From Sharpea porci (GTDB lineage Bacteria > Bacillota_I > Bacilli_A > Erysipelotrichales > Coprobacillaceae): a DNA stretch of 48,474 nucleotides. The notes under the pieces were generated by a model. The model was not told the DNA's origin. It ran no database searches and worked only from the letters and a program-made list of their open reading frames with translations. Of the stretch, positions 12,217-42,917 are shown piece by piece; position 1 is the stretch's first letter; every line of letters starts with the position of its first letter. The DNA lies in contig NZ_VUNM01000017.1 in the NCBI RefSeq assembly GCF_009695655.1, positions 1 through 48,474 of the forward strand. Reading direction: 5' to 3'. The position numbers were made by a program, and so were the translations under genes.

Positions 12217-12392
12217 CTGGGATAGGTAGGCACGCATCATTTTTTTTGCTTCCTTTACTTTTACATTGCCTCTTCAATATTCTTCCACTATTCATCACAC
12301 TGTAAAGTGTAAGCCTTAATTCCTAACATCATATCCTAAACTGAAATTTAAATTTTCTATTCTAGGTTTCTTAAAATGAAATCTTCGTGATA

Positions 12393-12421
12393 TTGACTTA
12401 TGCTGCATGTTTCGCTATACT
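12393..12421 (+). promoter_or_regulatory. Strong promoter opposing peptide gene copy 1
   Basis: TTGACT, exactly 17 bases, TATACT. Transcription would start near 12428 and run toward the hairpin at 12451-12482, antisense to the 3' end of the peptide transcript. Confidence 0.7.
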
Positions 12422-12427
12422 CTTCTC

Positions 12428-12490
12428 GAGAACGCTATCTAAAGCAAAGCGAAAGGACAGGAGTTGCGGCTCCTGTCCTTTCTAGCTTTT
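12428..12490 (+). ncRNA. Candidate antisense RNA (antitoxin), copy 1
   Basis: Predicted from the TTGACT-N17-TATACT promoter to the hairpin with 13-bp arms GAAAGGACAGGAG / CTCCTGTCCTTTC, whose stem is lengthened by AAAGC/GCTTT and which ends in CTTTT. The RNA of about 60 bases would be complementary to the 3' end of the peptide mRNA, the layout of type I systems such as par/Fst and txpA-RatA. No expression evidence is available. Confidence 0.45.
12451..12482. terminator. Shared bidirectional hairpin, copy 1
   Basis: A 13-bp GC-rich stem with a six-base loop between the two convergent transcripts. The plus side ends in TAGCTTTT and the minus side in GCTTTGCTTT, so it can end both RNAs, though neither T-tract is perfect. 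Confidence 0.6.
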
Positions 12491-12498
12491 AACGAGGC

Positions 12499-12621
12499 CT
12501 AGCTCGAGCGATTTTTACGGACTGCCTTGATCGTCCTGAGACAGACCTTAAGTGCATTCTCCACAATCACCGAAATGACTGCTTCAACGAAGCACCGGCA
12601 GATCCAGATGATCACGCTCAT
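12499..12621 (-). CDS. 40-residue hydrophobic/basic peptide, copy 1 (putative type I toxin)
   Basis: A 40-codon frame with an excellent AAAGGAGG seven bases before the ATG. It starts MSVIIWICRCF, continues with an amphipathic or membrane-prone part VEAVISVIVENALKV and ends with the basic RTIKAVRKNRSS, the profile of small membrane-acting toxins. Two Cys lie in the first eleven residues and a third near 25. No GG leader is present, so it is not a normal C39-exported bacteriocin. The 5' leader is GC-rich and can fold over the ribosome site (CCGCC against GGCGG). An opposing promoter makes a candidate antisense RNA against its 3' end. I do not recognise the family. Confidence 0.6.
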   Translation of the reverse strand: MSVIIWICRCFVEAVISVIVENALKVCLRTIKAVRKNRSS

Positions 12622-12669
12622 CTAAAGCCCTCCTTTCCCGCCACAAATCGGAGGCGGAGGAAGTGCCCT

Positions 12670-12708
12670 CTATATATGTATTTGCCAGAAAAAGACATTT
12701 TTCTCACA
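12670..12708 (-). promoter_or_regulatory. 39-bp element before peptide gene copy 1
   Basis: On the minus strand TGTGAGAAA at positions 1-9 and TGGCAAATACATATATAG at 22-39. The same element with the same spacing precedes three other genes in this window. No TTGACA-like box lies 16-18 bases before the TATATA, so activation by a dedicated factor is likely. Confidence 0.65.
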
Positions 12709-12799
12709 TAAAAATATCTTTTTTTCTTTTAGTGTGCCAAATTAGCACTGTGGGGCTTCTTTATCATATTCGCATCCTTAAAATGAGATCTTCGAAATA

Positions 12800-12828
12800 T
12801 TGACTTATGCTGCATGTTTCGCTATACT
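12800..12828 (+). promoter_or_regulatory. Strong promoter opposing peptide gene copy 2
   Basis: TTGACT, 17 bases, TATACT, identical to copy 1 although the flanking bases just upstream differ between the copies. Confidence 0.7.
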
Positions 12829-12834
12829 CTTCTC

Positions 12835-12897
12835 GAGAACGCTATCTAAAGCAAAGCGAAAGGACAGGAGTTGTGCCTCCTGTCCTTTCTAGCTTTT
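12835..12897 (+). ncRNA. Candidate antisense RNA (antitoxin), copy 2
   Basis: Same design as copy 1: start near 12835, hairpin at 12858-12889, end in CTTTT. The changed loop (TTGTGC) may let each antisense RNA tell its own target from the other copy's. Confidence 0.45.
12858..12889. terminator. Shared bidirectional hairpin, copy 2
   Basis: Same 13-bp stem as copy 1; only the loop differs. Confidence 0.6.
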
Positions 12898-12905
12898 AAC
12901 GAGGC

Positions 12906-13028
12906 CTAGCTCGAGCGACTTTTACGGACTGCCTTGATCGTCCTGAGACAGACCTTAAGTGCATTCTCCACAATCACCGAAATGACTGCTTCAACGAAGC
13001 ACCGGCAGATCCAGATGATCACGCTCAT
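12906..13028 (-). CDS. 40-residue hydrophobic/basic peptide, copy 2 (putative type I toxin)
   Basis: Differs from copy 1 only at residue 37 (Ser for Asn in the basic end, RKSRSS). Ribosome site, leader fold, hairpin and opposing promoter are all kept, so both copies look functional. Tandem near-identical copies are typical of type I toxin loci such as ldr and ibs. Function is inference; the translation signal and conservation between copies are what the sequence shows. Confidence 0.6.
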   Translation of the reverse strand: MSVIIWICRCFVEAVISVIVENALKVCLRTIKAVRKSRSS

Positions 13029-13076
13029 CTAAAGCCCTCCTTTCCCGCCACAAATCGGAGGCGGAGGAAGTGCCCT

Positions 13077-13115
13077 CTATATATGTATTCGCCAGAAAAA
13101 GACATTTTTCTCACA
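13077..13115 (-). promoter_or_regulatory. 39-bp element before peptide gene copy 2
   Basis: TGTGAGAAA at 1-9 and TGGCGAATACATATATAG at 22-39 on the minus strand, one base different from copy 1. Confidence 0.65.
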
Positions 13116-13308
13116 TAAAATATCTTTTTTTCTTTTGGTGAACCTGGTTTTCTTCATTATGTCTAGAACTGAAGGCAATACAATACATAGAGTCAGAGCT
13201 TAAAAAAAGGCGCATATCGAGAATCTCTTACCTTTAGGCATGAGAAGCGACAAACAAGAATAAATTAAGAAGAGAAATGGAGTGCTCTTTTGAGAAACAA
13301 AAAAAGTG

Positions 13309-15691: not shown

Positions 15692-15730
15692 TGTGAGAAA
15701 TTTCCTCTTTTCTGACATATACATATATAG
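15692..15730 (+). promoter_or_regulatory. 39-bp element before the 79-residue orphan gene
   Basis: TGTGAGAAA at 1-9 and TGACATATACATATATAG at 22-39, with spacing identical to the copies before the peptide genes and the C39 exporter. The start of transcription should fall just after it, leaving a leader with AAAGGAGA. Confidence 0.65.
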
Positions 15731-15755
15731 AAGCATAAGAAAAGGAGACATACAT

Positions 15756-15995
15756 ATGAACAATTATCTCACCGCTATCTCATTAAATGAATTTAATCAA
15801 GTCTTAGAATTACATGACATTCACGTAGATAAGTATACTCAAATTAAAATCCTACGTGCCCTGCGTTCTAACATCTATGCCATTGTCAATGATGACTATA
15901 CATGCATTTTAGAAGAATACATTAGTCATCTCGCTGACTGTAATATCGATGCTATTCACAAGATGTGTACGTATTTCAAACCTTTACTCACTTAA
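15756..15995 (+). CDS. 79-residue protein of unknown function
   Basis: Starts MNNYLTAISLNEFNQVLELH and ends MCTYFKPLLT. It is probably all-helical and soluble, with three Cys, no signal peptide, no membrane segment and no GG leader. ATG 15756 has AAAGGAGA seven bases upstream; an earlier in-frame ATG at 15693 lies inside the promoter element and is rejected. It is monocistronic, with its own 39-bp element and terminator, and divergent from mntP. Sharing the element with the toxin-like peptides and an exporter suggests a common stimulus, with immunity or regulation as possible roles. I do not recognise the family. Confidence 0.75.
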   Translation: MNNYLTAISLNEFNQVLELHDIHVDKYTQIKILRALRSNIYAIVNDDYTCILEEYISHLADCNIDAIHKMCTYFKPLLT

Positions 15996-16001
15996 AAGTC
16001 T

Positions 16002-16033
16002 ATCCTAAACCACATCAGGTTTAGGATTTTTAA
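16002..16033 (+). terminator. Terminator of the 79-residue gene (may also serve hsdR)
   Basis: ATCCTAAAC / GTTTAGGAT with an eight-base loop followed by TTTTAAA on the plus strand. It overlaps the hsdR stop codon on the other strand. Confidence 0.8.
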
Positions 16034-19000
16034 ATTACGGCGTTGTAATTGATTTGATCAATAACATTTCTAATTGACATCCAAACTGAAGTATCATCAA
16101 AAATATCTACGACACTTCCCTGATCAGTAAAAGGAGACTCTTGTAATACCGAAAAATCTGTCATCATGCCATTATGGACAATATACTCAACAATTTGATT
16201 GACAAAATAGATTTGCCGACTGCTCATTCTTTTACCATCCAAGAAATCAGAAAATGCCTTTTTAGCAACATTCATATCTAAACCTACAATGCTTCTTACA
16301 AAGGCACCTAGCGGCTTCTCACCATATTCATGTCGATAATCTTCTTTTGTACCTGCTTCATTCCAAAGGATACGTTCTAAAGACTCTAGGTCATCCTGAT
16401 CAAGTGGTTGATTCGTTTTGATTTTTTTAATTGCCTCATCGTTGACATGTTGCATAATACAAAACTCTGCTTTTGCTTTATAATTCCTCAAATCATCATT
16501 TTCAAGCTCCGAATCATTCCATGACATATCCAAAATGTTATCAGTGAAATTCGTATCATATCGGCGTTTTCTATCCGTTGGTAAATATTTCATCAAATTT
16601 CTAAGATTAATACGAATCTTTTCGAAATCATTAATTCCTGCACGGTCAATATAGCCATCTTCTAAAACTTGACTAATTAATTCTTTTTGAGCAAGTATTT
16701 CTGGAATGTTTGCAACTGAAGATATCGCTTCCACTTTCTTGTAAAGATCTGATTTTAATCGACCATATTTTTTTCCCGCTAATTGTGCTAATTCCAATCC
16801 AAAAACTAATGCATCAAAGCGAACTGCCGTTGCTTCATCATCGTCTGGTTGAATATATGGAGCAAGTTCTTCACGAACTTGTAACGTATCTTCAAATGTT
16901 ATGCTCTGATAATTTTCTTTCTTCGCATACTTATCAACATATTTAATATGTTGTCTAACAGCAAAATTATCTCTTTTTATTTCCTTTACTTTATTGACCA
17001 TTGTATCAACTAATTCATTTCTAAATGCAATCAATTGATCTGTTTGATAATTGAGGTCTTGCAGTTTATATGCCATCTGGAATTCCAGGTTAAAAATTGC
17101 GCTTTGTAATGCAATCATATTAGTTGTCGAACGTCCTTTAGACATACGGAAGAATTCAAAGTTTCCACAAAAATCAAAAATATAGAATTGCGATTTATCT
17201 TCCCCATCCATAAGTCCAGGGCATAGACGCGTACCACGTCCAATCATTTGCCAAAACTTTGCCTTACTCATCACCTTTTTAAAGAATACAAGATTCAATA
17301 CTTCAGGTACATCTATTCCGGTATCAAGCATATCAACCGATATAGCTATCTGAGGAAGACCATTAGGATTAGAGAATTCATCTATTGCACTTTGTGAATA
17401 TGTTGTTTGATTATCAATAACTTTTACAAAAGGTTGTCCATTTGTTCCTTTAGATAGGTTTGGATATTCTTTGTTGAAAATTTCCATAATCTTTTCTGCA
17501 TGTAAATGATTTTTAGCAAATATGATTGTCTTACCTATTTTTTCACCATATTGAATTTTTAAGCCATTTGTCATTACTATATGAAGAACCTGCTTAATAG
17601 TATCTTCATTAAATAACCATGTATTTAATGCTGATGAATCTATTTTTAAAGGTAATACTTCTTCATTTTCAAAAGTTTCCTCATATTCCCTTTTTTCTTC
17701 TTCAGATAAATCAGCATAGGTTATACCTTCTTCAATGAATTTCAGTTTTGTTTCAACAGAAACATAATCAACTAAAAATCCATCCTTAACCGCCTGTGCT
17801 AACTCGTAGCCATATGTTGGTACACCATTTTCTAATTCAAAAATAGAATAAGTGTTTTTATCAATCTCATCTTTAGGTGTTGCTGTTAAGCCAACAAGTG
17901 GCGCATCAAAGTAGTTCAAAATATCTTTATATTTATTATAAATAGATCTATGTGCTTCATCACATATTACAAGATCAAAATGTCCAATTGTAAAAATTTT
18001 GCCCTCATCATCCATTATATTATCTACACAACTTATCATTGTTTGATAAGTTGAAAAAACACAATGAGCATTTATATTATCCTTATCTTCACAAAGATTA
18101 GTACAAGATAAATCTGGTAACATATTAACAAAGCTTCGTTTAGCCTGTGTAACAAGAGAAGTACGGTCAGCCAAAAATAGCACATTCTTGATCCAACCAG
18201 CTTCTAGCAATACTTTACACAAAGCAATAACTGTTCTAGTTTTACCAGAACCAGTCGCCATAACAAGAAGAGCTTTTCTTCTATTATCTTGGTCAAAACT
18301 TTCACACACTGCTTTTACCGCTGCTTCTTGATAATATCTACCAGCGATTCTCTTATCAACATTTACATACTTTAAGCTTGTCTTCATGTGCTGAAGATTA
18401 AAAAGCTTTTCAATATCTCTCTTCGAATAAATACCTGCTATTTTTCTTTCTGGATATTGATTATCAATAATGCGTGTCTCAAAACCATTTGTTAAGAATA
18501 CAACCGGTCTTCTACCAGACTCCTTCTCAAGAATATCAGCATAAAGTTTAGCTTGTTGACGTCCTTTTACAACGTCTACACATGTTCTCTTTGCTTCAAC
18601 AACAGCTAGAGGCATCTGCATATCATCATAAAGCACATAATCAGCATATCCTGTCTCAGATTGGTTAGGCATACCATTTAATTTAACTTCATTAAGCCAA
18701 TCTTTCCCTTCAACCCAGCCAGCATCTCTAAGCATTTCATCTATATACAGTTTTCGTGTTGAGTATTCTGTTAGCTCTAATGGTCTTGGAATATAATTAT
18801 CTTGATTTTCTATACGTCGTGCTGAGAGCTCGGCTTTTAGAGATTCATTCTCTTTACGCAATTTTTCTAAATCTAAATCTTTTTGTGCTATGTTTTGCAA
18901 TTCTTTTTGCAATTCAGCTTTCATTGTTTCAGACTGTGCACGATTGCTCTTAGCTTTTTTTATACGGTCATTAATATAATCTTTATTAAAATCACGTTGT

Positions 19001-19392
19001 TCATATTCATCTGCATAACAGCAAGAAACAAAGTCCATAAAAATAAAGAGATTCTCTAAACAAAGCATTGCTGCGTCTTTGCCCATTTTCTTATCACCAT
19101 GTGCAACATTATTGCCACAGCGACGAATATAATTCATTCTCTTTAAGAGATCCTCACCAACAATATTTCTAAATTCTACCGCATTCATTAAGCTTTGCAG
19201 ATTATCTTGGTATGGTTTTTTTAGTTCTTCTTCAACTGAATACAACCATTTAACAGCAAATTCCATTGCTCTACGGCAATTTATAATACATGCATCAGAG
19301 TCTAGAAGGAAAACTTTTTCTGCTGAAATTGCAACACTAGCAAAATCCTTAAACTTCGGTTCTTCTTTCAGATAATCAAAATTAGTCTTCAT
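16030..19392 (-). CDS. hsdR: Type I restriction enzyme R subunit (EcoEI type)
   Basis: ATP-driven translocase and nuclease of the type I system. The 1120 residues hold: a DUF4145-like helical domain at about 1-130, coiled coil at 150-200, endonuclease domain with Asp near 244 (GYADYVLYDD) and E-A-K near 263, Walker A MATGSGKTRT near 377, DEAH near 476, LTATPKDEID, and GRGTRLCPG. All motifs are intact. ATG 19392 is chosen because GGGGGT lies just upstream; a GTG six bases earlier is inside that site. It lies about 110 bases after hsdS1, so it may depend on the upstream operon or have its own promoter. Confidence 0.95.
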   Translation of the reverse strand: MKTNFDYLKEEPKFKDFASVAISAEKVFLLDSDACIINCRRAMEFAVKWLYSVEEELKKPYQDNLQSLMNAVEFRNIVGEDLLKRMNYIRRCGNNVAHGDKKMGKDAAMLCLENLFIFMDFVSCCYADEYEQRDFNKDYINDRIKKAKSNRAQSETMKAELQKELQNIAQKDLDLEKLRKENESLKAELSARRIENQDNYIPRPLELTEYSTRKLYIDEMLRDAGWVEGKDWLNEVKLNGMPNQSETGYADYVLYDDMQMPLAVVEAKRTCVDVVKGRQQAKLYADILEKESGRRPVVFLTNGFETRIIDNQYPERKIAGIYSKRDIEKLFNLQHMKTSLKYVNVDKRIAGRYYQEAAVKAVCESFDQDNRRKALLVMATGSGKTRTVIALCKVLLEAGWIKNVLFLADRTSLVTQAKRSFVNMLPDLSCTNLCEDKDNINAHCVFSTYQTMISCVDNIMDDEGKIFTIGHFDLVICDEAHRSIYNKYKDILNYFDAPLVGLTATPKDEIDKNTYSIFELENGVPTYGYELAQAVKDGFLVDYVSVETKLKFIEEGITYADLSEEEKREYEETFENEEVLPLKIDSSALNTWLFNEDTIKQVLHIVMTNGLKIQYGEKIGKTIIFAKNHLHAEKIMEIFNKEYPNLSKGTNGQPFVKVIDNQTTYSQSAIDEFSNPNGLPQIAISVDMLDTGIDVPEVLNLVFFKKVMSKAKFWQMIGRGTRLCPGLMDGEDKSQFYIFDFCGNFEFFRMSKGRSTTNMIALQSAIFNLEFQMAYKLQDLNYQTDQLIAFRNELVDTMVNKVKEIKRDNFAVRQHIKYVDKYAKKENYQSITFEDTLQVREELAPYIQPDDDEATAVRFDALVFGLELAQLAGKKYGRLKSDLYKKVEAISSVANIPEILAQKELISQVLEDGYIDRAGINDFEKIRINLRNLMKYLPTDRKRRYDTNFTDNILDMSWNDSELENDDLRNYKAKAEFCIMQHVNDEAIKKIKTNQPLDQDDLESLERILWNEAGTKEDYRHEYGEKPLGAFVRSIVGLDMNVAKKAFSDFLDGKRMSSRQIYFVNQIVEYIVHNGMMTDFSVLQESPFTDQGSVVDIFDDTSVWMSIRNVIDQINYNAVI

Positions 19393-19501
19393 GCTCACAC
19401 CCCCAAGATAAATACTTCACATATAACTATTATAAACCTTCTAAAAGCACAAAACACTATATGTCTATAATACAATACACAGTTTATAAATACTATCTTA
19501 T

Positions 19502-20590
19502 TTATACAAACCTTGATTTGTCGACTTGCTTAACTAATTCTACGAATTCATTTTGTAACTCTAGTGGCGGCACAAATCCTTTTAGATTTGCTATTTTACT
19601 TTGGAACAAATTAGCTTGTGCCGATACAGTCGTCGCTTTTTTTATTTGTTCTTGTATATATTCTGAAGTCATCATATATTCTGCAAATACTGGCAGTATA
19701 TCTTTTTTGAACCTTATTAATGCAGCACTTCTAACCATTTGAAATTTTATTCCGGCTGGTACGCTGCAACATCTTCCGACCGATCCAGAGCACGAAATGA
19801 GCACATCACCCTCTTTTGGTACGATTCTCTTTGATATTCGGTTATACTCAGTTTCATCAATATAGTCTACATCATTTAATTGCAAAGAATGATTAAGGAT
19901 ATTCCTTGCTGATAACAAATATATTCCTTTTGAAGTACGCTTTGGTGTTGCATGTTCCCCATCAGTTATCACTTCCGATATTTCATTAACACTAAGTAAT
20001 TTCCAACCTTTTGGATTTTCTCTTAAATCCCCAAACATCTCGACAAATCGGGCTTTAACAAGGTCATCAAGTGACGCTAATTCACACTTATAATCATTAA
20101 TAATCTCTGTTACTTTATCAAGAATTTCTACTATATTTCTTTGTTTATCTATATTTTGTATATTTACTTTAAATTTTGATAATGTTGCTTTGTTAAGAGT
20201 TTTACCCATAACAGCTTTGTTGGTGCCATCCTCCCAGTTCATACTAGAAAACATATAATATATGTAGTCAGGTATAAGTTCCACTACATGCTTATCCCTA
20301 AACGACATAATTGCTTCGTTAGAATACATGGGTTCAGATGTGATTGCAGTCTTTCCAATTGAAAGCTTAAAACTCATGACAACAGTATTTTTTGGTATCT
20401 GACTAATTTTACTCTCAAATACCGCACGATCAGACAAACATTCCTTTGTTTCTTTTATGTATTTTCCACACTTCGATAAATCTGCAATAGATATCCACTT
20501 ATTATCTTTTGAACTCCAATATTCCGGGGTATTCCTTGAAGGAGTCTTACCCATTTGGAGTTCAAAAATATCTTCTAATCTATATTCCAT
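19502..20590 (-). CDS. hsdS: Type I specificity subunit, second copy, lacking the C-terminal tail
   Basis: DNA-recognition subunit with two target-recognition domains (about 1-160 and 190-350) and a central conserved segment DDLVKARFVEMFGD near 175-188. It stops at QVDKSRFV, right after the recombination site at 19506-19528, where hsdS2 continues with about 20 more residues. GGAGAG precedes the ATG. Its two halves differ from those of hsdS2, while the three site regions are nearly identical. I read it as a store of two alternative recognition domains placed next to the recombinase; it may or may not work as a subunit without the tail. Confidence 0.9.
   Translation of the reverse strand: MEYRLEDIFELQMGKTPSRNTPEYWSSKDNKWISIADLSKCGKYIKETKECLSDRAVFESKISQIPKNTVVMSFKLSIGKTAITSEPMYSNEAIMSFRDKHVVELIPDYIYYMFSSMNWEDGTNKAVMGKTLNKATLSKFKVNIQNIDKQRNIVEILDKVTEIINDYKCELASLDDLVKARFVEMFGDLRENPKGWKLLSVNEISEVITDGEHATPKRTSKGIYLLSARNILNHSLQLNDVDYIDETEYNRISKRIVPKEGDVLISCSGSVGRCCSVPAGIKFQMVRSAALIRFKKDILPVFAEYMMTSEYIQEQIKKATTVSAQANLFQSKIANLKGFVPPLELQNEFVELVKQVDKSRFV
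19506..19528 (+). repeat. Recombination site A (end of hsdS1)
   Basis: A 23-base exact match to 23214-23236. Read on the coding strand it is CAAA-TCAAGG-TTTG: inverted arms around a six-base centre. Confidence 0.6.
20028..20072 (+). repeat. Recombination site B (middle of hsdS1)
   Basis: Forty-five bases matching 23742-23786 with one mismatch, encoding the central conserved segment. On the plus strand the dyad is CAAA-TCGGGC-TTTA. Confidence 0.6.
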
Positions 20591-20602
20591 CTTTTATCTC
20601 TC

Positions 20603-20621
20603 CAAACCCGGATTTGTCAGG
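20603..20621 (+). repeat. Recombination site C (before hsdS1, over the recombinase stop)
   Basis: A 19-base exact match to 24284-24302. On the coding strand it is CAAA-TCCGGG-TTTG. The recombinase stop codon (20617-20619) lies inside it. Because this site is outside the hsdS frame, identity between C and F is not explained by protein conservation. Confidence 0.6.
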
Positions 20622-21585
20622 AAATATATTTTTGATGTGAAGCTTTTACATTGTTTTGATTTACCATAGCATATTGCATTGTTGTATCGATTTGTGAATG
20701 CCCAAGAATCTTTTGTACTTGTTCTATAGGCATGCCTTTATCAATGGCTCTTGTAGCCATCGTTCTCCTAAATTTATGTGGGTGTATTCTTTCGAGTTTT
20801 AATTCTCTACCTAGCTCTCTTAGACGTATTTCAACACCACTAATTTTTAATCTCTTGAACGGGGTATTCAATGTCACAAACAATGCTGGATTATCATCAT
20901 TTCTAGAATCAATGTATTCTTTTAGATGCACTTTAGACTTAGCATCAAAATACACACGTCTTTCTTTATCTCCTTTACCATAAACAACACATTCTCTACC
21001 CTCTAAATCAATGTCATCAATATTAAGATTAACCAATTCCCCAACACGCATTCCTGTTGAATATAATAGATCAATAATTGCTTTATCTCTCGTTGTCTTA
21101 CAACCATCTCTAAGCTTTTCAATTGCTTCATCCGATATCGTATTTTTAACAACTTTCTTTGTCTTTATTTTATGAATTCTTTTCATCGGGCTTTTTAAAA
21201 TATAATCCTCTTCCTCAAGCCAAGAAAAAAAACTTGATATGTTACGTCTTACATTATCTATAGTTACATTCGAACAGTTATTTCTCTTTTGATATTCCGA
21301 CAAGTACTCACGCATCTCTTCTGTTGTTATTTTTCTTACTTCAGTTTCTATTTGTGCAAACATGGCTTCTAATGTTGTTTTATAGAACTTAATCGTTCTT
21401 GATGAACAACCTTCTATTTGTTTTGCAGCAAAAAACATTTGCATAAAGTCCTCATTAGAGATATTTTGTTTCACTAATGTGTTTTCTGCAAATGTCTTCA
21501 ATATAACTTCTTGTAGTTTCTTCATCTGCTCAATTGTTAGATAAGCAGACATTTCATTCAATACTATAACGATTTTTTCATCCAT
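20617..21585 (-). CDS. Tyrosine recombinase next to the hsdS genes
   Basis: Phage-integrase/Xer-type recombinase, 322 residues. It has an N-terminal SAM-like DNA-binding domain (~50-140), then the catalytic set: Arg in STGMRVGEL near 180, Lys in GKGDKERRV near 205, HPHKFRRT near 268-275, His in LGHSQIDTT near 295 and Tyr in MQYAMV near 304. All are present, so it should be active. It sits between TIR and hsdS1 and is the likely enzyme for the three pairs of dyad sites; recombinases of this family are known partners of phase-variable hsdS genes. Its ribosome site lies in the loop of a hairpin (separate entry). Confidence 0.92.
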   Translation of the reverse strand: MDEKIVIVLNEMSAYLTIEQMKKLQEVILKTFAENTLVKQNISNEDFMQMFFAAKQIEGCSSRTIKFYKTTLEAMFAQIETEVRKITTEEMREYLSEYQKRNNCSNVTIDNVRRNISSFFSWLEEEDYILKSPMKRIHKIKTKKVVKNTISDEAIEKLRDGCKTTRDKAIIDLLYSTGMRVGELVNLNIDDIDLEGRECVVYGKGDKERRVYFDAKSKVHLKEYIDSRNDDNPALFVTLNTPFKRLKISGVEIRLRELGRELKLERIHPHKFRRTMATRAIDKGMPIEQVQKILGHSQIDTTMQYAMVNQNNVKASHQKYIS

Positions 21586-21608
21586 GTTGGTATCTCCTTT
21601 ATACCAAC
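21586..21608 (-). promoter_or_regulatory. Hairpin presenting the recombinase ribosome site in its loop
   Basis: GTTGGTAT - AAAGGAG - ATACCAAC, directly followed by the ATG. The 8-bp perfect inverted repeat encloses exactly the Shine-Dalgarno sequence. It could tune translation or be a protein operator for autoregulation. Confidence 0.5.
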
Positions 21609-22007
21609 ATCAACCAACCATTATATAATTATCCAAATTATTTTTAAGATAATGAATTTAATAGCTTTTGCATTTTAGCAAACTCATATTTATTAGCATA
21701 TTAAAATCACTTCAAAGCTAAACATTCAAATCATGCTTATTTTTTATATCATAAAGATCAGGATAAAAAAGCACTATCTGATAAAAAGCAACTCTCAGGA
21801 ATATTGAATAGCTCGTATTTCTAGATTGATTTTTCATTTACTAAAGCGTTGCTTTCTCGAAACGAAATAACAATATAACTGAAAGAAGTTCCATGTAATA
21901 AACTTTGAACTATCAAAAAATAATCAGTTTTAGTTCAGCTTATAAAACAAATCATGTAAATTTTTATAGGTAGTTTTAATCAACCACGTTTCATTCGATG
22001 ATTTCTA
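21609..22007. other. AT-rich gap between TIR gene and recombinase
   Basis: About 400 bases with no gene I can support. A TATAAT on the minus strand (21620-21625) may serve the recombinase. The rest shows only short AT-rich repeats. Confidence 0.5.
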
Positions 22008-23135
22008 TTAATTCGAAATATCCATCATAAACTGATCCAATATATAAATCCAGCGTTTTTCATCAACACTTAAATCAAACATTTTAATCAACTTATCTTT
22101 TAACTCAGTAATGCTTGCTTTGCATTTATCGCTCCCATCTAGAATAGCTCCCATTCTATTCGTATCCACAGCACATTGGGCATATTTAGGATTTTTAAAA
22201 TTAAATGAAGGTACATAAATATTTGTATAATCTGATTGAGTTACCCACACAGCGCCCATTTCATTTAAGCATGCTGGACTATTTAAATACTCATCAGACC
22301 ATAGAACAATAACAAATATTTTTCTACTAAAAGAATTCCTCAAATACTCATAAATATTCTGATCTAATGGAATTTTGTGTAGTGGATGAGATGTATATAT
22401 TAGTTGATCTCCTTCTATTCCTATACCACTAAGAAGTTTTTCTAAAGCATTTCCATATTTTTTATCCGTAGAACTATGGCTTAGGAAAATGACAGGTTCT
22501 GATTTTCGATTACAATCATTCCTATCTATGAATTGAGAAAAGTCAACTTCATCTATTCCCTCATAAATTTCTTTTATCAATTCCCTATTTTTTTCATGAT
22601 CATCATAATTAATGACAAATTTATTATCACAAATATCCATCCAATTTTCTGTATACCAGTCTAATAATCTTAACAAAAAATACTTAATCTTGTCTTTATC
22701 ATTAGTACGTATCCCCTGTTCTAGGGAATACAAATCATTTGTGACAAAACCACCCTTTGTATAATTCTCAATTACTGTTTTAATACCCCTAAATTCATAT
22801 TTCAGCTTATCATATGCATTGATTTTGTTCAAATCATTTTTACTTTCTTCAAGTTCCTCTAAATATGTAGACAAAATCGCTTTGGCGCGTTTAAGTCCAC
22901 TTATACAAGCATCACAAAAATCACTTTTAGGAGTATTTAAGGCGTACACGCTTAAGTCGTATTGTTGTTCTTTAAATTCATCTATTTCGTAGCTCTCAGC
23001 ACCATATTCATTGATTAAAAACCTTTCAGCTTTTGATTTCCATGCAAGAAATTCCGGAGAACTACTTGTTACTCTTTTCAAGATGAGTTGATCTATTTCA
23101 CCTATTATTGATTTAAGTTTGTCTATTTTGTTCAT
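22008..23135 (-). CDS. TIR-domain protein inside the type I system
   Basis: 375 residues. The first ~200 are helical with no family I recognise. A TIR domain follows from about 213: VIFLSHSSTDKKYG, then IFVIVLWSDEYLNSP and CLNEMGAVW, with Glu near 291 in the place of the catalytic Glu of NAD-cleaving TIR domains. It has no transmembrane segment. The ATG lies eleven bases after the hsdS2 stop with GGAG between, so it is translated from the hsdM-hsdS2 transcript. Bacterial TIR proteins of this kind act in anti-phage abortive defence; linkage to the restriction system is inference from position. Confidence 0.85.
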   Translation of the reverse strand: MNKIDKLKSIIGEIDQLILKRVTSSSPEFLAWKSKAERFLINEYGAESYEIDEFKEQQYDLSVYALNTPKSDFCDACISGLKRAKAILSTYLEELEESKNDLNKINAYDKLKYEFRGIKTVIENYTKGGFVTNDLYSLEQGIRTNDKDKIKYFLLRLLDWYTENWMDICDNKFVINYDDHEKNRELIKEIYEGIDEVDFSQFIDRNDCNRKSEPVIFLSHSSTDKKYGNALEKLLSGIGIEGDQLIYTSHPLHKIPLDQNIYEYLRNSFSRKIFVIVLWSDEYLNSPACLNEMGAVWVTQSDYTNIYVPSFNFKNPKYAQCAVDTNRMGAILDGSDKCKASITELKDKLIKMFDLSVDEKRWIYILDQFMMDISN

Positions 23136-23146
23136 CTTCCATCTCC

Positions 23147-24238
23147 TTATCCAAAGTATTCTTGCATTAATGAATCAAATAATAATTGTGCTTCATCTAA
23201 TGCTTTTTGTACAACAAACCTTGATTTGTCGACTTGGCTTAAAAATACATCATATTGCTGCTGTAATTCTATTGGTGGGACAATCATTTCTCTTTGTTTT
23301 AATGAGTTGAATTCAATATTGTCTGCAGTTACAGCACGGACGCCAGATAATATATCCTTTTCATGCATTTTAAACTGAACAGATAGAAACTTTGCTAGAA
23401 CTAGTTCATTAGGAATAAAAGCTTTCAAATCTTGATTGATAGTTATTGGAACCGCATTGATAGCAACCGGTAATGTATGCTTTAATATACCACTTCTAAT
23501 AACAATAATTACTGAATTTACAGGAACCATTCTTGCTGTACTATTCTCTACACCTAATTGATTAATTTTAATTTGACTATCTTTTATCACTTTACATTTC
23601 ATATCTTTAGAAGAAACCCAAGGAATATCACCATCCTTATAATACTCAGGATGTGCTTTCGATGGTGTCCCTCCCCCATATATTTCTGTGCATAAGCTTT
23701 CTACAGAAGCAGTTTTCCATCCCTTATCATTATTAATCGGGTCCCCAAACATCTCGACAAATCGGGCTTTAACAAGATCATCAAGTTTTTTTAACTCCAA
23801 ACTTCTCATTTCAATAACACTTTGTAAGTTATCTAAAGTTCTAATAATAATATCCTGTTGTTCTAAATCACGAACATTATAAATTTCAATATCAGAAATA
23901 TAAGCTTTATTAGTGTGCTTTAATCCAGCACCTTTGAATCCAGCTTGCAGAATATTCATATTAGCCTTTAAAAAATAATATAGATATTTGCACTTCACGC
24001 TATCGTTAGTTTGTAAAACAACACAGTCTGTTGACGTACTAAATTTGCCAGAATAATAATGTAATGTTGCATTTCCACCAGTTCCCATGATTATTGCTTC
24101 ACCATCGATTTGATAATCATCATATCGCTTGTTTTCTTCTGAACTAGAAGTAAAAAACATGTATTTCCCATCTTCAACAGCTTCACCAGCTTTAATATTT
24201 GATTTTTGTGTAAAGGTACAAATTTCTCTAATTTTCAT
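23147..24238 (-). CDS. hsdS: Type I specificity subunit, full-length copy next to hsdM
   Basis: 363 residues with two recognition domains (about 1-145 and 170-335), central segment KKLDDLVKARFVEMFGD near 150-165 and the C-terminal conserved tail ending LLFDSLMQEYFG. It follows hsdM by 80 bases, with site F between them. No strong ribosome site precedes MKIREICTF; GGAT is the nearest. Being complete and adjacent to hsdM, it is the likely expressed copy, with sites F, E and D marking the edges of its two domains. Confidence 0.93.
   Translation of the reverse strand: MKIREICTFTQKSNIKAGEAVEDGKYMFFTSSSEENKRYDDYQIDGEAIIMGTGGNATLHYYSGKFSTSTDCVVLQTNDSVKCKYLYYFLKANMNILQAGFKGAGLKHTNKAYISDIEIYNVRDLEQQDIIIRTLDNLQSVIEMRSLELKKLDDLVKARFVEMFGDPINNDKGWKTASVESLCTEIYGGGTPSKAHPEYYKDGDIPWVSSKDMKCKVIKDSQIKINQLGVENSTARMVPVNSVIIVIRSGILKHTLPVAINAVPITINQDLKAFIPNELVLAKFLSVQFKMHEKDILSGVRAVTADNIEFNSLKQREMIVPPIELQQQYDVFLSQVDKSRFVVQKALDEAQLLFDSLMQEYFG
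23214..23236 (+). repeat. Recombination site D (end of second domain of hsdS2)
   Basis: Exact 23-base partner of site A, same orientation. The hsdS2 frame continues through it into the tail, which hsdS1 lacks. Confidence 0.6.
23742..23786 (+). repeat. Recombination site E (middle of hsdS2)
   Basis: Partner of site B with one mismatch in 45 bases, same orientation. Confidence 0.6.
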
Positions 24239-24283
24239 ATATTAATCCAAAAATATCAAAATAGAATTTTTCTATCATCTAAA

Positions 24284-24302
24284 CAAACCCGGATTTGTCA
24301 GG
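24284..24302 (+). repeat. Recombination site F (between hsdM and hsdS2)
   Basis: Exact 19-base partner of site C in non-coding DNA, 17 bases after the hsdM stop, same orientation. Confidence 0.6.
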
Positions 24303-24318
24303 CTTGTTTTCTTCCTTT

Positions 24319-25821
24319 CTATGAGTTAAGCATTCTTTCTAGCTCATCCATTTCTTTACTTATTTCTTTTTCTAATTCTCGAATATTAGCCATTATTTCT
24401 GATGTTGGTGGATATTCAACTGGTACATATTCAATTTCTTTGTATTTATTGATTGAAAGATCATAATTATTTTCTTCTATTTCTTTCTTAGGTACCATGA
24501 AGGACTTTTCAGTTCTTTTTCTTTCAATCTCTTTATCTAGGTGTTTAAATCTTTCAATAATATCAGGGATGTCATTTTCAGAAATAGGAGTACGTTTGTC
24601 ATCTAAGCTATAGCCATCCGCAGTCATATCATAGAACCATACATTGTCTGTACCGCCATGATTAGTTTTTGTGAACACAAGAACTGCTGTAGATACACCA
24701 GCATATGGCTTAAATACACCAGAAGGCATAGAAATGACTGCTTCAAGTCTGTTTTCTTCAACAATTTTTTTTCGAATACTCTTATGTGCATTGGATGCCC
24801 CAAACAGCACACCATCAGGTACGATACACGCACATCTACCACCTATTTTCAACATACGCAGGAATAAAGCTAAAAATAAGAGTTCTGTTTTCTTTGTTTT
24901 ACATACTTTCAATAAGTCATTTGATACAGCATCTGCATCAAGACTTCCTTTGAAAGGAGGATTAGCCAATATCAAACTATACTTATCTTTATCTGTATTT
25001 TGTTCTGATAGGCTATCGCGATATTCAATAAATGGGTTTTCTATTCCATGTGTCATCATATTCATTGCACCAATACGAAGCATAGTACGATCCATATCAA
25101 ACCCATTGAACATAGAATTCATATAATGGTCTTTCTTTTCTTTATTAAAGAAGATTTCATCTTTTCTTTTTTCTTTAAGGTATTCCGCTGCAGCAACTAG
25201 AAATCCAGATGTACCACAAGCAGGATCACAAATAACATCATCTGCCTTTGGATCTACAAGTTCGACCATCATACGAATAATATGCCTAGGAGTTCTAAAT
25301 TGCCCATTTCTTCCAGCTTGAGCTATTTTATTTAATAAATATTCATAGACATCCCCACGTACATCTGAAGACTGAGCCTGACTCATTATACTGTATATTT
25401 CATCCAAAGAATCTACTACTTTTGAAAGCAGCAAAGGTGTTGGAAGTTTAAAAATAGCATCATCCATATATTTAGAATAAGCACTGTTCTTATCCCCATG
25501 TAAATCCTTTATAAATGGGAAAACCCATTCCTGCATGATTGTATACATTCTCCCAGCAGGTAAGTCACGAAATACTGACCATTTAAGTTGTCTTCCTTCT
25601 ATTGTACGATCACCAATCTTTACTTCATCCGCAAAGATACTTTTATAAGGTAATCCTAACATGGCACTTTCTTTTGCTCTTTTGTTATCGACATCATCAA
25701 GATCTCTTATGAACATAAGATATGTTATTTGTTCAATAACTTCTAATGGATTTACAAGTCCTCCTGCCGCAAAGACATCCCATAATCCGTCAATTTTATT
25801 CTTTAATTCACCTGTAATCAT
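24319..25821 (-). CDS. hsdM: Type I DNA methyltransferase M subunit (N6-adenine)
   Basis: 500 residues with an N-terminal HsdM domain, the AdoMet motif DPACGTSGFLVAA near 197-209 and the catalytic NPPF in ILANPPFKGSLD near 284. A coiled-coil C-terminus (ELEKEISKEMDELER) would contact HsdS. GAAGGA precedes the ATG. It overlaps the Fic gene by 14 bases, so both come from the promoter at 26924-26952. It modifies the sites chosen by whichever hsdS is expressed. Confidence 0.96.
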   Translation of the reverse strand: MITGELKNKIDGLWDVFAAGGLVNPLEVIEQITYLMFIRDLDDVDNKRAKESAMLGLPYKSIFADEVKIGDRTIEGRQLKWSVFRDLPAGRMYTIMQEWVFPFIKDLHGDKNSAYSKYMDDAIFKLPTPLLLSKVVDSLDEIYSIMSQAQSSDVRGDVYEYLLNKIAQAGRNGQFRTPRHIIRMMVELVDPKADDVICDPACGTSGFLVAAAEYLKEKRKDEIFFNKEKKDHYMNSMFNGFDMDRTMLRIGAMNMMTHGIENPFIEYRDSLSEQNTDKDKYSLILANPPFKGSLDADAVSNDLLKVCKTKKTELLFLALFLRMLKIGGRCACIVPDGVLFGASNAHKSIRKKIVEENRLEAVISMPSGVFKPYAGVSTAVLVFTKTNHGGTDNVWFYDMTADGYSLDDKRTPISENDIPDIIERFKHLDKEIERKRTEKSFMVPKKEIEENNYDLSINKYKEIEYVPVEYPPTSEIMANIRELEKEISKEMDELERMLNS

Positions 25822-40360: not shown

Positions 40361-40825
40361 CTAACCCTCCCGCTTGATATCAAGCTTGTCCAAAATGACT
40401 TTCTGTAAATGGAACATTTCTTTTTCTTCTTCCTCAGTCATATGATCATAACCAAGTAAATGTAAACAACCATGACAGAACAAGAAACACATCTCTCTTC
40501 TTAATGAATGACCATATTCTATGGCCTGCGCTTTCGCATGATCAACAGAGATAAAGATATCTCCTAACTCCCTTGGCATACCTTCCATATAGAACTGCTC
40601 ACTATCTTCTAAGGCAAAGCTAATGACATCAGTTGCACGGTCAATATGACGATAGTCACGATTTATTTCATGAATCTTTTCGTCATCAACGAGAATTACA
40701 CTCATTTCAATATCATCTTTTATCTCGAGGACTTCTAAAGCTGTTTGAATAATAGCCTGAAAGTCTTCTTCATAATCTTCTTTAAAATCAGTTACTTCAT
40801 TTTGATAAGCTAAATCAATATTCAT
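40361..40825 (-). CDS. ybeY: rRNA maturation endoribonuclease YbeY
   Basis: 154 residues with the metal-binding HGCLHLLGYDHMTEEEE (three His) near 117-130. It acts in 16S rRNA 3'-end processing and ribosome quality control. It overlaps the C39 exporter gene by four bases (ATGA-type), so it depends on that gene's transcript and translation. Confidence 0.95.
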   Translation of the reverse strand: MNIDLAYQNEVTDFKEDYEEDFQAIIQTALEVLEIKDDIEMSVILVDDEKIHEINRDYRHIDRATDVISFALEDSEQFYMEGMPRELGDIFISVDHAKAQAIEYGHSLRREMCFLFCHGCLHLLGYDHMTEEEEKEMFHLQKVILDKLDIKREG

Positions 40826-42864
40826 CTTTTTACCTTTATTTCCTTTACTTTTCCATCCTCCATTATAACATATTCTTCCCCTTTATTCATTAAATTTAAC
40901 TGATGTGTCACAATCACAAAAATTCGCTCAGGATAAGCCTTCATCATCTTATGCACAATTCTCTTCGCTTTACTAAAAGCAATCGAAGAAAAGACCTCAT
41001 CAAATAGACAAACATCACTCTCTTTCAATAGACAACGGGCAATCTGAATAATCGCCTGTTGTCCTGAGGAAAATGGCTTACCATCCATTTCTAACTGATC
41101 ATCAAGATGATAAAAGAGCTCTTCACTCTCTAATAGCGTTAAGACTTCTAGAATAGCTGTTTCGTCCTTGACACCTAGGTTCTCTCGCACACTGCCCTTA
41201 AGAAGACTCTCTCCCCTCGCACAATATGTCATATGTTTATAAAGCGAGACTTTCTTTAGCGTTCTGATTTCCTGATCATTGAGATAGATATTCCCTTTAA
41301 AACATTCATCCAAGCCCTTTAATAAATAAATCATTGTACTTTTGCCTGTCCCATTAGCCCCCATGATAAAGAGATTGTGGTCAATAGTGAGATCAAGATG
41401 CTTTAAGACATCGACATGATAACCATATCCATAAGTGACATGATCAAAGCGTATAGAGTGAATGGGTTGTTGCAGTTCTTCATTTCCATCATGTTGTTGT
41501 AAGCTAAATTCCTTAAAGCTTTCAAACAACAAGACATTTTCTTTATATGAGACCATGCTTGTCGCAAGTTCAATAATCGGTCCTTCCATCAAACTATAAA
41601 GCATATAGAAAGCAAGCAAGCTGCCCATACTTAACTTGGACATATGAAATAAATAGTAGCCTACTGTGAGAATAATGGTTGAGGAAAGAACATGAAGGAT
41701 TTCTAAATGAGCGACAAAACGCTTTTTTTCTATTTCCTGATCTTCAACACTATTCGCTTCTTGTTCATAAGCATGTTCAAAACGCTTTTCCCATTTCTTC
41801 CCTGAAGCAAGCTGACGATAGAGATGTCTTGAAGAAATAAATTCCAACAATTCAGACATATGCTTATTATGTTTCTCATAGGTTGTCTTGTAGAGTTCAA
41901 AGAGTGTCTGTGAAGACTTTTTCACATAGAAAAAGATGACAAGAAAGCTCAAGAGGGCTGGCAATGCCATGATCGGAGAAATCCACAATAATGCCCCCAA
42001 AAGCAAGATAATCGTTAGAATATCAATACTAAAAGCTTCATAAAAACGTACTGTATAGGATGAAAGCTGGTAGAGATTGAGAAGTTTCGCTTGAATCATC
42101 CCCACATCACTGTTCAACAAGTGCTCAGGCAGGTGCAAGGCATTCACCATGGACTGATAGACAACTTCCTTATTAAGCGCCCGTTCAAAGTACACCGTCT
42201 TTTTATTTTTCATCTTTGTCAAGAGTATTTTTGTAAGACCTAACATACTATAGGCAATAAAAAGCGCAATTCCAAAGAATAGTGGTGTCTTAACTTTCAT
42301 CTCATCAATCATCATACCAACAAGGCGACTTAAGGCAAAAGAAAGCAATGATGAGAGAATGGCATAGCGAATAAGCAAGCTTATTTCTTTTTGATAAAGC
42401 TTATATGTCTGTTTTAAGAAATCCTTATAGGTTACATCATGATACTCATAATAGCGACCAATATGTCTTACGGTAATCACAAAGCCAGAATATTTTTCTT
42501 CTAGTTCAGAAAGCGAAAGTGTCAACAAGCCCTTAGCTGGATCACCAATAACACATTGTTCACCTAGCTCATATAAAACGACAAAATGGCCAAGCTTCCC
42601 ATCAATCAAATGCAAGATAGCTGGCAAAGTAATTGTATTGTCTGCAAGTTGTTTAAGTGATGCTTTATATGCTTTTGTTTCAACATGATAGGACTTCAAT
42701 GTCTCAACAAGGCCCTTGATCGTTGTCCCACTGGCATCCACCCTTGTCTTGGTCTTTAATACGGTTGTATCTTCATCAATACCATAATACTTCAACAACA
42801 TCTTTAAACAATAAACACCACAACTTCTTTCATCATCCTGCAAATAAATAGGATATCTACCCAT
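40822..42864 (-). CDS. C39-peptidase ABC exporter (bacteriocin-type)
   Basis: 680 residues that should cleave GG-type leaders and export the peptide. The C39 domain has Cys in ERSCGVYCLK near 14, His in GHFVVLYEL near 91 and Asp in GDPAKG near 107, all in place. Five to six membrane helices lie about 160-440. The ATPase has Walker A GANGTGKST near 500, signature FSSGQQ near 597 and Walker B LFDEV near 620. ATG 42864 is used because GGAGG lies ten bases upstream, right after the 39-bp element. No GG-leader peptide gene was found nearby. It heads the run ybeY-cdd-era-recO, an unusual place for such an exporter. Confidence 0.9.
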   Translation of the reverse strand: MGRYPIYLQDDERSCGVYCLKMLLKYYGIDEDTTVLKTKTRVDASGTTIKGLVETLKSYHVETKAYKASLKQLADNTITLPAILHLIDGKLGHFVVLYELGEQCVIGDPAKGLLTLSLSELEEKYSGFVITVRHIGRYYEYHDVTYKDFLKQTYKLYQKEISLLIRYAILSSLLSFALSRLVGMMIDEMKVKTPLFFGIALFIAYSMLGLTKILLTKMKNKKTVYFERALNKEVVYQSMVNALHLPEHLLNSDVGMIQAKLLNLYQLSSYTVRFYEAFSIDILTIILLLGALLWISPIMALPALLSFLVIFFYVKKSSQTLFELYKTTYEKHNKHMSELLEFISSRHLYRQLASGKKWEKRFEHAYEQEANSVEDQEIEKKRFVAHLEILHVLSSTIILTVGYYLFHMSKLSMGSLLAFYMLYSLMEGPIIELATSMVSYKENVLLFESFKEFSLQQHDGNEELQQPIHSIRFDHVTYGYGYHVDVLKHLDLTIDHNLFIMGANGTGKSTMIYLLKGLDECFKGNIYLNDQEIRTLKKVSLYKHMTYCARGESLLKGSVRENLGVKDETAILEVLTLLESEELFYHLDDQLEMDGKPFSSGQQAIIQIARCLLKESDVCLFDEVFSSIAFSKAKRIVHKMMKAYPERIFVIVTHQLNLMNKGEEYVIMEDGKVKEIKVKR

Positions 42865-42878
42865 AGAAAAAACACCTC

Positions 42879-42917
42879 CTATATATATATTTGTCAATAG
42901 AAGATGTTTTTCTCACA
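42879..42917 (-). promoter_or_regulatory. 39-bp element before the C39 exporter operon
   Basis: TGTGAGAAA at 1-9 and TGACAAATATATATATAG at 22-39 on the minus strand. GGAGG begins at the last base of the element, so the true start of transcription should lie within its 3' part; this argues that the -10 function lies nearer TGRCRWATA. Confidence 0.65.

Follow-up and report, generated by a model that had tools for sequence, protein, structure and literature searches.

Tandem peptide and antisense RNA modules in Sharpea: a putative type I toxin-antitoxin family behind a competence-type promoter

The tandem repeat and its features

The window analysed here, a stretch of 48,474 nucleotides from Sharpea porci (contig NZ_VUNM01000017.1), contains two tandem modules of ~365 bp at 12370-12734 and 12777-13140, flanked by genes that, on our reading of the sequence, are glycogen-branching-enzyme-like on one side and rpsT-like on the other. 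Positions 12370-12669 and 12777-13076 are 98% identical across 300 nt at a spacing of 407, and similarity extends beyond this core to 12734 and 13140, respectively. A first-pass annotation of this DNA had placed tandem modules at 12370-13140 and described them as differing in a hairpin loop, not in its stem, and in one peptide residue, all of which holds: the copies are mismatched at 6 of the 300 aligned positions, the 6-nt loop accounting for 2 of these and the stem for none (hypergeometric p = 0.005, from small numbers), and the two peptides are distinguished by the single change N37S. Besides a peptide ORF and antisense features, we detected no gene within the repeat unit. Elsewhere in the window, at 16030-25821, the translations read as a type I restriction-modification locus with hsdR-like, hsdM-like and two hsdS-like genes; a tyrosine recombinase (20617-21585) and an ORF for a TIR-like protein (22008-23135) lie between these genes, an arrangement that resembles a specificity-shuffling system.

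The peptide ORF lies on the minus strand (copy 1, MSVIIWICRCFVEAVISVIVENALKVCLRTIKAVRKNRSS, 12499-12621; copy 2, 40 aa with N37S, 12906-13028), and in each copy a strong Shine-Dalgarno sequence, AAAGGAGGG, is found 6 nt ahead of the ATG (12628-12636 in copy 1), in agreement with the hydrophobic, basic-ended 40-residue peptide and perfect ribosome site reported at first pass. Upstream on the same strand is a promoter of a type that we describe below as competence-type (12670-12707 and 13077-13114), from which toxin mRNAs of ~231 nt are predicted (12440-12670 and 12847-13077; fold z = -4.2 for copy 1), opening with a hairpin in the 5' UTR by which the Shine-Dalgarno sequence is sequestered (12629-12663 and 13036-13070, minus strand). 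The convergent TTGACT-N17-TATACT promoter that had been claimed is present on the plus strand in both copies (12393-12421 and 12800-12828), and the pattern TTGACW-N17-TAYAYT matches these two sites and no others over both strands of the window (97 kb). This housekeeping-type promoter is predicted to drive an antisense RNA, the putative antitoxin, of ~67 nt (12428-12495, fold z = -5.0, and 12835-12902). The strong 13-bp hairpin noted earlier at the meeting point of the two RNAs has a perfect stem in both copies (12451-12482 and 12858-12889), is common to both RNAs and is a probable bidirectional terminator. Transcription start sites and RNA ends are, here and throughout, predictions from the sequence.

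A family of modules in the genus Sharpea

A homology search of the 40-residue peptide, which the first-pass annotation had proposed, returned relatives at multiple loci in Sharpea and no known family. Relatives of the module occur in the same genome on contigs C28, C76 and C56, partly in tandem, and further copies are present in Sharpea azabuensis DSM 18934 on contigs C46, C24 and C77, such that our comparison covers two species. Seven intact modules across both genomes keep one anatomy. Within Sharpea the modules constitute a family spread over several loci, a feature absent from the earlier description, and the recurrence of the same architecture, diverged in sequence, at other loci in two species indicates that they are more than a product of chance. 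Of 43 genomes of the host family that were searched, the 41 outside Sharpea yielded no module, and no copies were found among phages, plasmids and viral contigs. Outside Sharpea, a sample of 395 genomes of the class yielded 5 borderline matches only (E 0.002-0.009, approximately chance level), and DNA matches in other genera were rejected as poly-T noise.

Modules appear to be replaced or turned over at fixed sites, since the S. azabuensis copy adjoining rpsT (C24) encodes a peptide 36% identical to that of the window beside an rpsT protein that looks the same, whereas the copies adjoining a dihydrouridine-synthase-like gene in the two species (C56 and C77) differ in one residue. Six further copies are incomplete (C28, C28b, C76b and C56b, together with two orphan antisense units in S. 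azabuensis, on C46 and C8). All six retain the hairpin and a recognisable antisense promoter, weakened in some, and none keeps a promoter-driven toxin without the antisense side. Stem mismatches are present in the degenerate copies C76b and C28b. In C28 the ORF is intact and is cut off from its promoter and Shine-Dalgarno sequence by an IS607-like element. This element, carrying resolvase-like and TnpB-like ORFs (L103:292-2540, G000:C28), silences the toxin and spares the antisense unit.

Coding constraint on the peptide

Members of the peptide family are 38-43 aa long, with a net charge of +3 to +7 and a hydrophobic stretch formed by the N-terminal 20 residues. The frame is open in 8 copies, among them all intact modules, and residues M1, W6, E13 and I16 are invariant. 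Changes are fewest at second codon positions and, in every informative pair of diverged ORFs, dN is below dS, typically at 0.3-0.5 of its value. The synonymous/non-synonymous comparison among relatives, a check named at first pass, consequently comes out in favour of coding constraint, and by this substitution pattern the peptide ORF is a gene under purifying selection. The hydrophobicity of the peptides argues only weakly against purely neutral drift (P 0.05-0.2 per pair), and for the question of coding dN/dS is the better evidence. A helical-moment test gave no significant amphipathicity, leaving a strongly amphipathic helix unsupported.

The peptide had been called unrecognised, and our searches agree: no family scored above cut-off in Pfam for any of the 8 members or in NCBIfam for the 2 members scanned, and no match worth keeping was obtained from PHROG or the PDB, which supports the view that the peptide belongs to no known family. 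A separate observation concerns the sequence CGAG-N6-CTCGTTAAAA around the stop codon (window 12490-12512), which is nearly invariant in all intact modules despite the peptides ending there in different frames, and which hints at a further constraint at the RNA level.

The predicted antisense RNA and the shared hairpin

The antisense promoter, as TTGACW-N17-TAYAYT, is found in all seven intact modules at 25-30 nt from the hairpin, with spacers that have diverged, and the lengths predicted from this conserved distance are 63-69 nt for the antisense RNA and 229-231 nt for the toxin mRNA. The hairpin burying the Shine-Dalgarno sequence opens the mRNA in the intact modules, and its sequence varies among copies. 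The 3' hairpin is 100% paired in all six distinct intact stems, with 3 of its 13 pairs altered on both sides; its covariation score was reached by none of 500 shuffles, and slid controls pair at 47-59%. A match to a known structural RNA, which the first-pass annotation had said would speak against its reading, did not emerge, as Rfam returned nothing above threshold for the modules; the best sub-threshold match, to sau-63 (E = 0.2), was judged to be due to chance.

No significant pairing was detected between the antisense RNA and the 5' UTR or translation start of the toxin mRNA (duplex z from +0.05 to -1.3), and Fst-like pairing with the 5' UTR is accordingly unsupported. Given this lack of complementarity to the translation start, repression more likely acts via the 3' end, as in TxpA/RatA (PMC4147584).

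A promoter in common with competence genes

The motif of the toxin promoter, GTGAGAAA-N15-CGAATACATATATAG, recurs upstream of unrelated genes. Allowing up to 3 mismatches, the motif occurs 13 times in the genome of the window and 9 times in that of S. azabuensis, while a reversed-pattern control and the 41 other genomes of the family each gave 0 sites. When scored with a matrix built from non-toxin sites alone, the window's toxin promoters are among the best, at 49.4 for copy 1 (GTGAGAAA-N15-CAAATACATATATAG) and 51.0 for copy 2, which matches the motif exactly. The motif precedes a comG operon (the ATPase of which matches the ComGA model at 2e-81, just below cut-off), an operon whose last gene is dprA, and a double-glycine peptide gene followed by radC. 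In S. azabuensis a further site is found where recA lies directly behind cinA; upstream of recA in the present genome the motif is weaker and reads ATGAGAAA-N15-ACTATACATATATAG. Within the window, the motif also stands before a 79-aa ORF (promoter 15693-15730, ORF 15756-15995, plus strand) and before a C39-peptidase ABC exporter (promoter 42879-42916, minus strand; gene 40822-42864), and the remaining motif-bearing genes encode small proteins without an assigned function. No such promoter was found upstream of comEA or comEC, and thus not every competence gene has it.

On the strength of these motif matches, the toxin promoter is the promoter of competence genes, a point that the first-pass annotation overlooked. 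The toxin is consequently a predicted late-competence gene and, given that the peptide shares the promoter of DNA-uptake genes, entry into the transformable state should induce a putative self-directed toxin as well.

The CGAATA element resembles the com-box, TACGAATA, as well as the core GAAT that sigma-H promoters contain. A SigH-like factor is encoded at an rlmB-sigH-secE-nusG locus (its match is below the equivalog cut-off), and by elimination and resemblance the competence-type promoter is probably recognised by sigma-H. In non-sporulating Firmicutes, competence genes are driven by factors of the sigma-H family, of which ComX is a member; in L. sakei the factor is sigma-H itself (PMC3364868).

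A probable type I toxin-antitoxin unit under predicted competence control

Two features expected of type I systems in general are found in the modules, namely a small hydrophobic peptide ORF under coding constraint and, by virtue of its conserved promoter and covarying hairpin, a predicted antisense RNA gene overlapping the toxin mRNA; the feature expected of a late-competence regulon, a motif common to the toxin, comG, dprA and recA, is also present. The first-pass annotation had suggested a convergent pair resembling a type I toxin-antitoxin system, and the seven intact modules strengthen that suggestion through coding constraint, covariation, the antisense promoter and constant predicted lengths. 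In our view, every module probably represents a toxin-antitoxin unit of type I with a late-competence gene as its toxin. Under such a scheme, the antisense RNA would be made constitutively from its consensus housekeeping promoter and would hold the toxin down by meeting the 3' end of the peptide mRNA, with contact beginning at the hairpin loops and pairing extending over ~55 nt, whereupon the paired mRNA would be cleaved by RNase III or left untranslated. Once sigma-H turned on competence, toxin mRNA would exceed antitoxin, and the peptide would enter the membrane and slow or arrest the competent cell, or kill it if the antitoxin were lost. Differences in loop sequence between copies would hold each antitoxin to its own partner.

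Several alternative hypotheses may explain these observations. The peptide could be a non-toxic small membrane protein that acts in competence, for example as a division brake or an accessory of uptake, and that is silenced by antisense RNA outside competence. Regulon membership and coding constraint fit this proposal equally well, and toxicity itself is a prediction; however, modules that are numerous and partly in tandem, and that diverge quickly, decay and turn over between two species, are more typical of toxins, and the broken copies lose the toxin side and not the antisense side, as toxin modules typically do, such that we regard a non-toxic role as unlikely. We are similarly doubtful, and if anything more so, of a competence-induced exported killing peptide, akin to leaderless bacteriocins or fratricins, the level of which the antisense RNA merely tunes. 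Small cationic peptides in tandem would suit such a role, the promoter also serves a C39-peptidase exporter and a double-glycine peptide, and bacteriocin production is coupled to competence in streptococci (e.g. PMC5295010), yet the 40-mers lack a double-glycine leader and gave no significant amphipathicity in the helical-moment test, the repeat unit is filled by peptide and antisense features with no immunity gene, and a sequestered Shine-Dalgarno sequence combined with a dedicated antisense RNA is the arrangement seen in internal toxins. That the repeats are a non-coding RNA or a decaying repetitive element with an incidental ORF is very improbable, for although they are repeated, intergenic and strongly structured at the RNA level and lack a protein-family match, they also combine 8 open frames with dN below dS and four invariant residues, a strong Shine-Dalgarno sequence and a specific promoter, and have no Rfam match.

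Points against the type I reading are the short T-tracts that follow the shared hairpin on both strands, the lack of significant pairing between the antisense RNA and the 5' UTR, and a taxonomic sample of two species. With somewhat less assurance than for the unit as such, we lean towards viewing the modules as a new toxin family and as the first type I system in which a late-competence toxin is silenced by antisense RNA and tipped by the competence sigma factor. The modules might serve to arrest the growth of competent cells, or they might protect themselves against erasure by transformation, since a cell that lost a module through recombination would be left with toxin mRNA and no antitoxin. 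In an incomplete search of the literature we found no report of a type I system within a competence regulon and no published work on competence in Erysipelotrichia; a self-directed toxin tied to natural transformation in that group, with an RNA antitoxin, is likewise a combination that we did not find reported. The defined regulon (comG, dprA, recA, radC, the exporter and the peptides) predicts that Sharpea is transformable now or was so recently. Furthermore, it offers a case for studying the cost of competence, in which regulon toxins that slow the competent cell may be set against toxins that shield mobile modules from transformational deletion.

Comparison with known systems

The RNA layout of the modules is familiar; what is new is the peptide family and the predicted logic of its control. 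The first-pass annotation had likened the layout to Fst/par and TxpA/RatA, and the likeness stands in that the sizes resemble the former and the meeting point of the RNAs the latter, while membership of either by sequence does not. Fst/par systems (pAD1 RNAI-RNAII and Fst-Sm/srSm of S. mutans) possess a convergent toxin mRNA of ~200 nt, an antisense RNA of ~70 nt, a bidirectional terminator and a small hydrophobic peptide with a charged C-terminus (PMC3543317), and the Sharpea layout is predicted to be alike. In Streptococcus mutans, for example, srSm is ~70 nt and fst-Sm ~200 nt (PMC3543317), and convergent RNAs around a shared candidate terminator are predicted in 7/7 Sharpea modules, with antisense lengths of 63-69 nt against the ~66-70 nt typical of Fst/par. 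However, the direct repeats of Fst/par that are complementary to the toxin translation start are without a counterpart in the modules, scans of 8 members against Pfam and of 2 against NCBIfam gave the peptide no sequence relation to the Fst family, and Sharpea has a competence-type toxin promoter where that of Fst/par is housekeeping-like.

TxpA/RatA, BsrG/SR4 and C. difficile CD2517.1-RCd8 share with the modules a 3'-3' overlap that spares the translation start, and their likely mode of action, mRNA degradation, is the one proposed here (PMC4147584, PMC6563280). In contrast, the overlap is ~75 nt in txpA/ratA and is predicted to be much shorter in Sharpea, at ~55 nt around one hairpin. Neither protein-family nor Rfam matches place the modules in TxpA/RatA, the peptide being unrelated to toxins of this type in the Pfam and NCBIfam scans, and Sharpea adds the competence promoter. 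The nearest parallel for control by an alternative sigma factor is provided by C. difficile, in which a type I system is under SigB (PMC6563280).

A toxin-antitoxin system within a competence regulon is known from Haemophilus influenzae, in which the competence-regulated type II system toxTA is often affected by natural deletions that drop the toxin and retain the antitoxin (PMC6957337), as do the incomplete Sharpea copies. Yet toxTA has a protein antitoxin and CRP/Sxy control over one operon, whereas in Sharpea the predicted antitoxin is an RNA and the competence promoter serves the toxin alone. Finally, the ComX/SigX and sigma-H regulons of Firmicutes likewise have comG, dprA, recA-cinA and radC served by a single type of alternative-sigma promoter, at the core of which is CGAATA. 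The Sharpea motif differs from those of these regulons in its extended GTGAGAAA upstream half and CATATATAG tail, which within the family occur in Sharpea alone, and its regulon includes hydrophobic peptides with predicted antisense RNAs.

Other genes behind the competence-type promoter

Both the comG and the dprA operon open with a gene (L094:331-789 and L096:1778-2706) for a conserved protein, 150-159 aa in length, that matches no family, and the 79-aa protein of the window (MNNYLTAISLNEF..., 15693-15995 with its promoter) is conserved in both Sharpea genomes. The peptide with a double-glycine leader (MYELTEMEMQSINGG...; L099:1610-2562, G000:C12) is encoded directly ahead of radC and, taken together with the window's C39-peptidase exporter, is a candidate pheromone or bacteriocin. 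A competence-type promoter also faces a convergent radical-SAM-like gene and reads into its 3' end (L098:947-1929, G000:C12; L076, G001:C15), an arrangement that is conserved in both species and that may yield a competence-induced antisense transcript.
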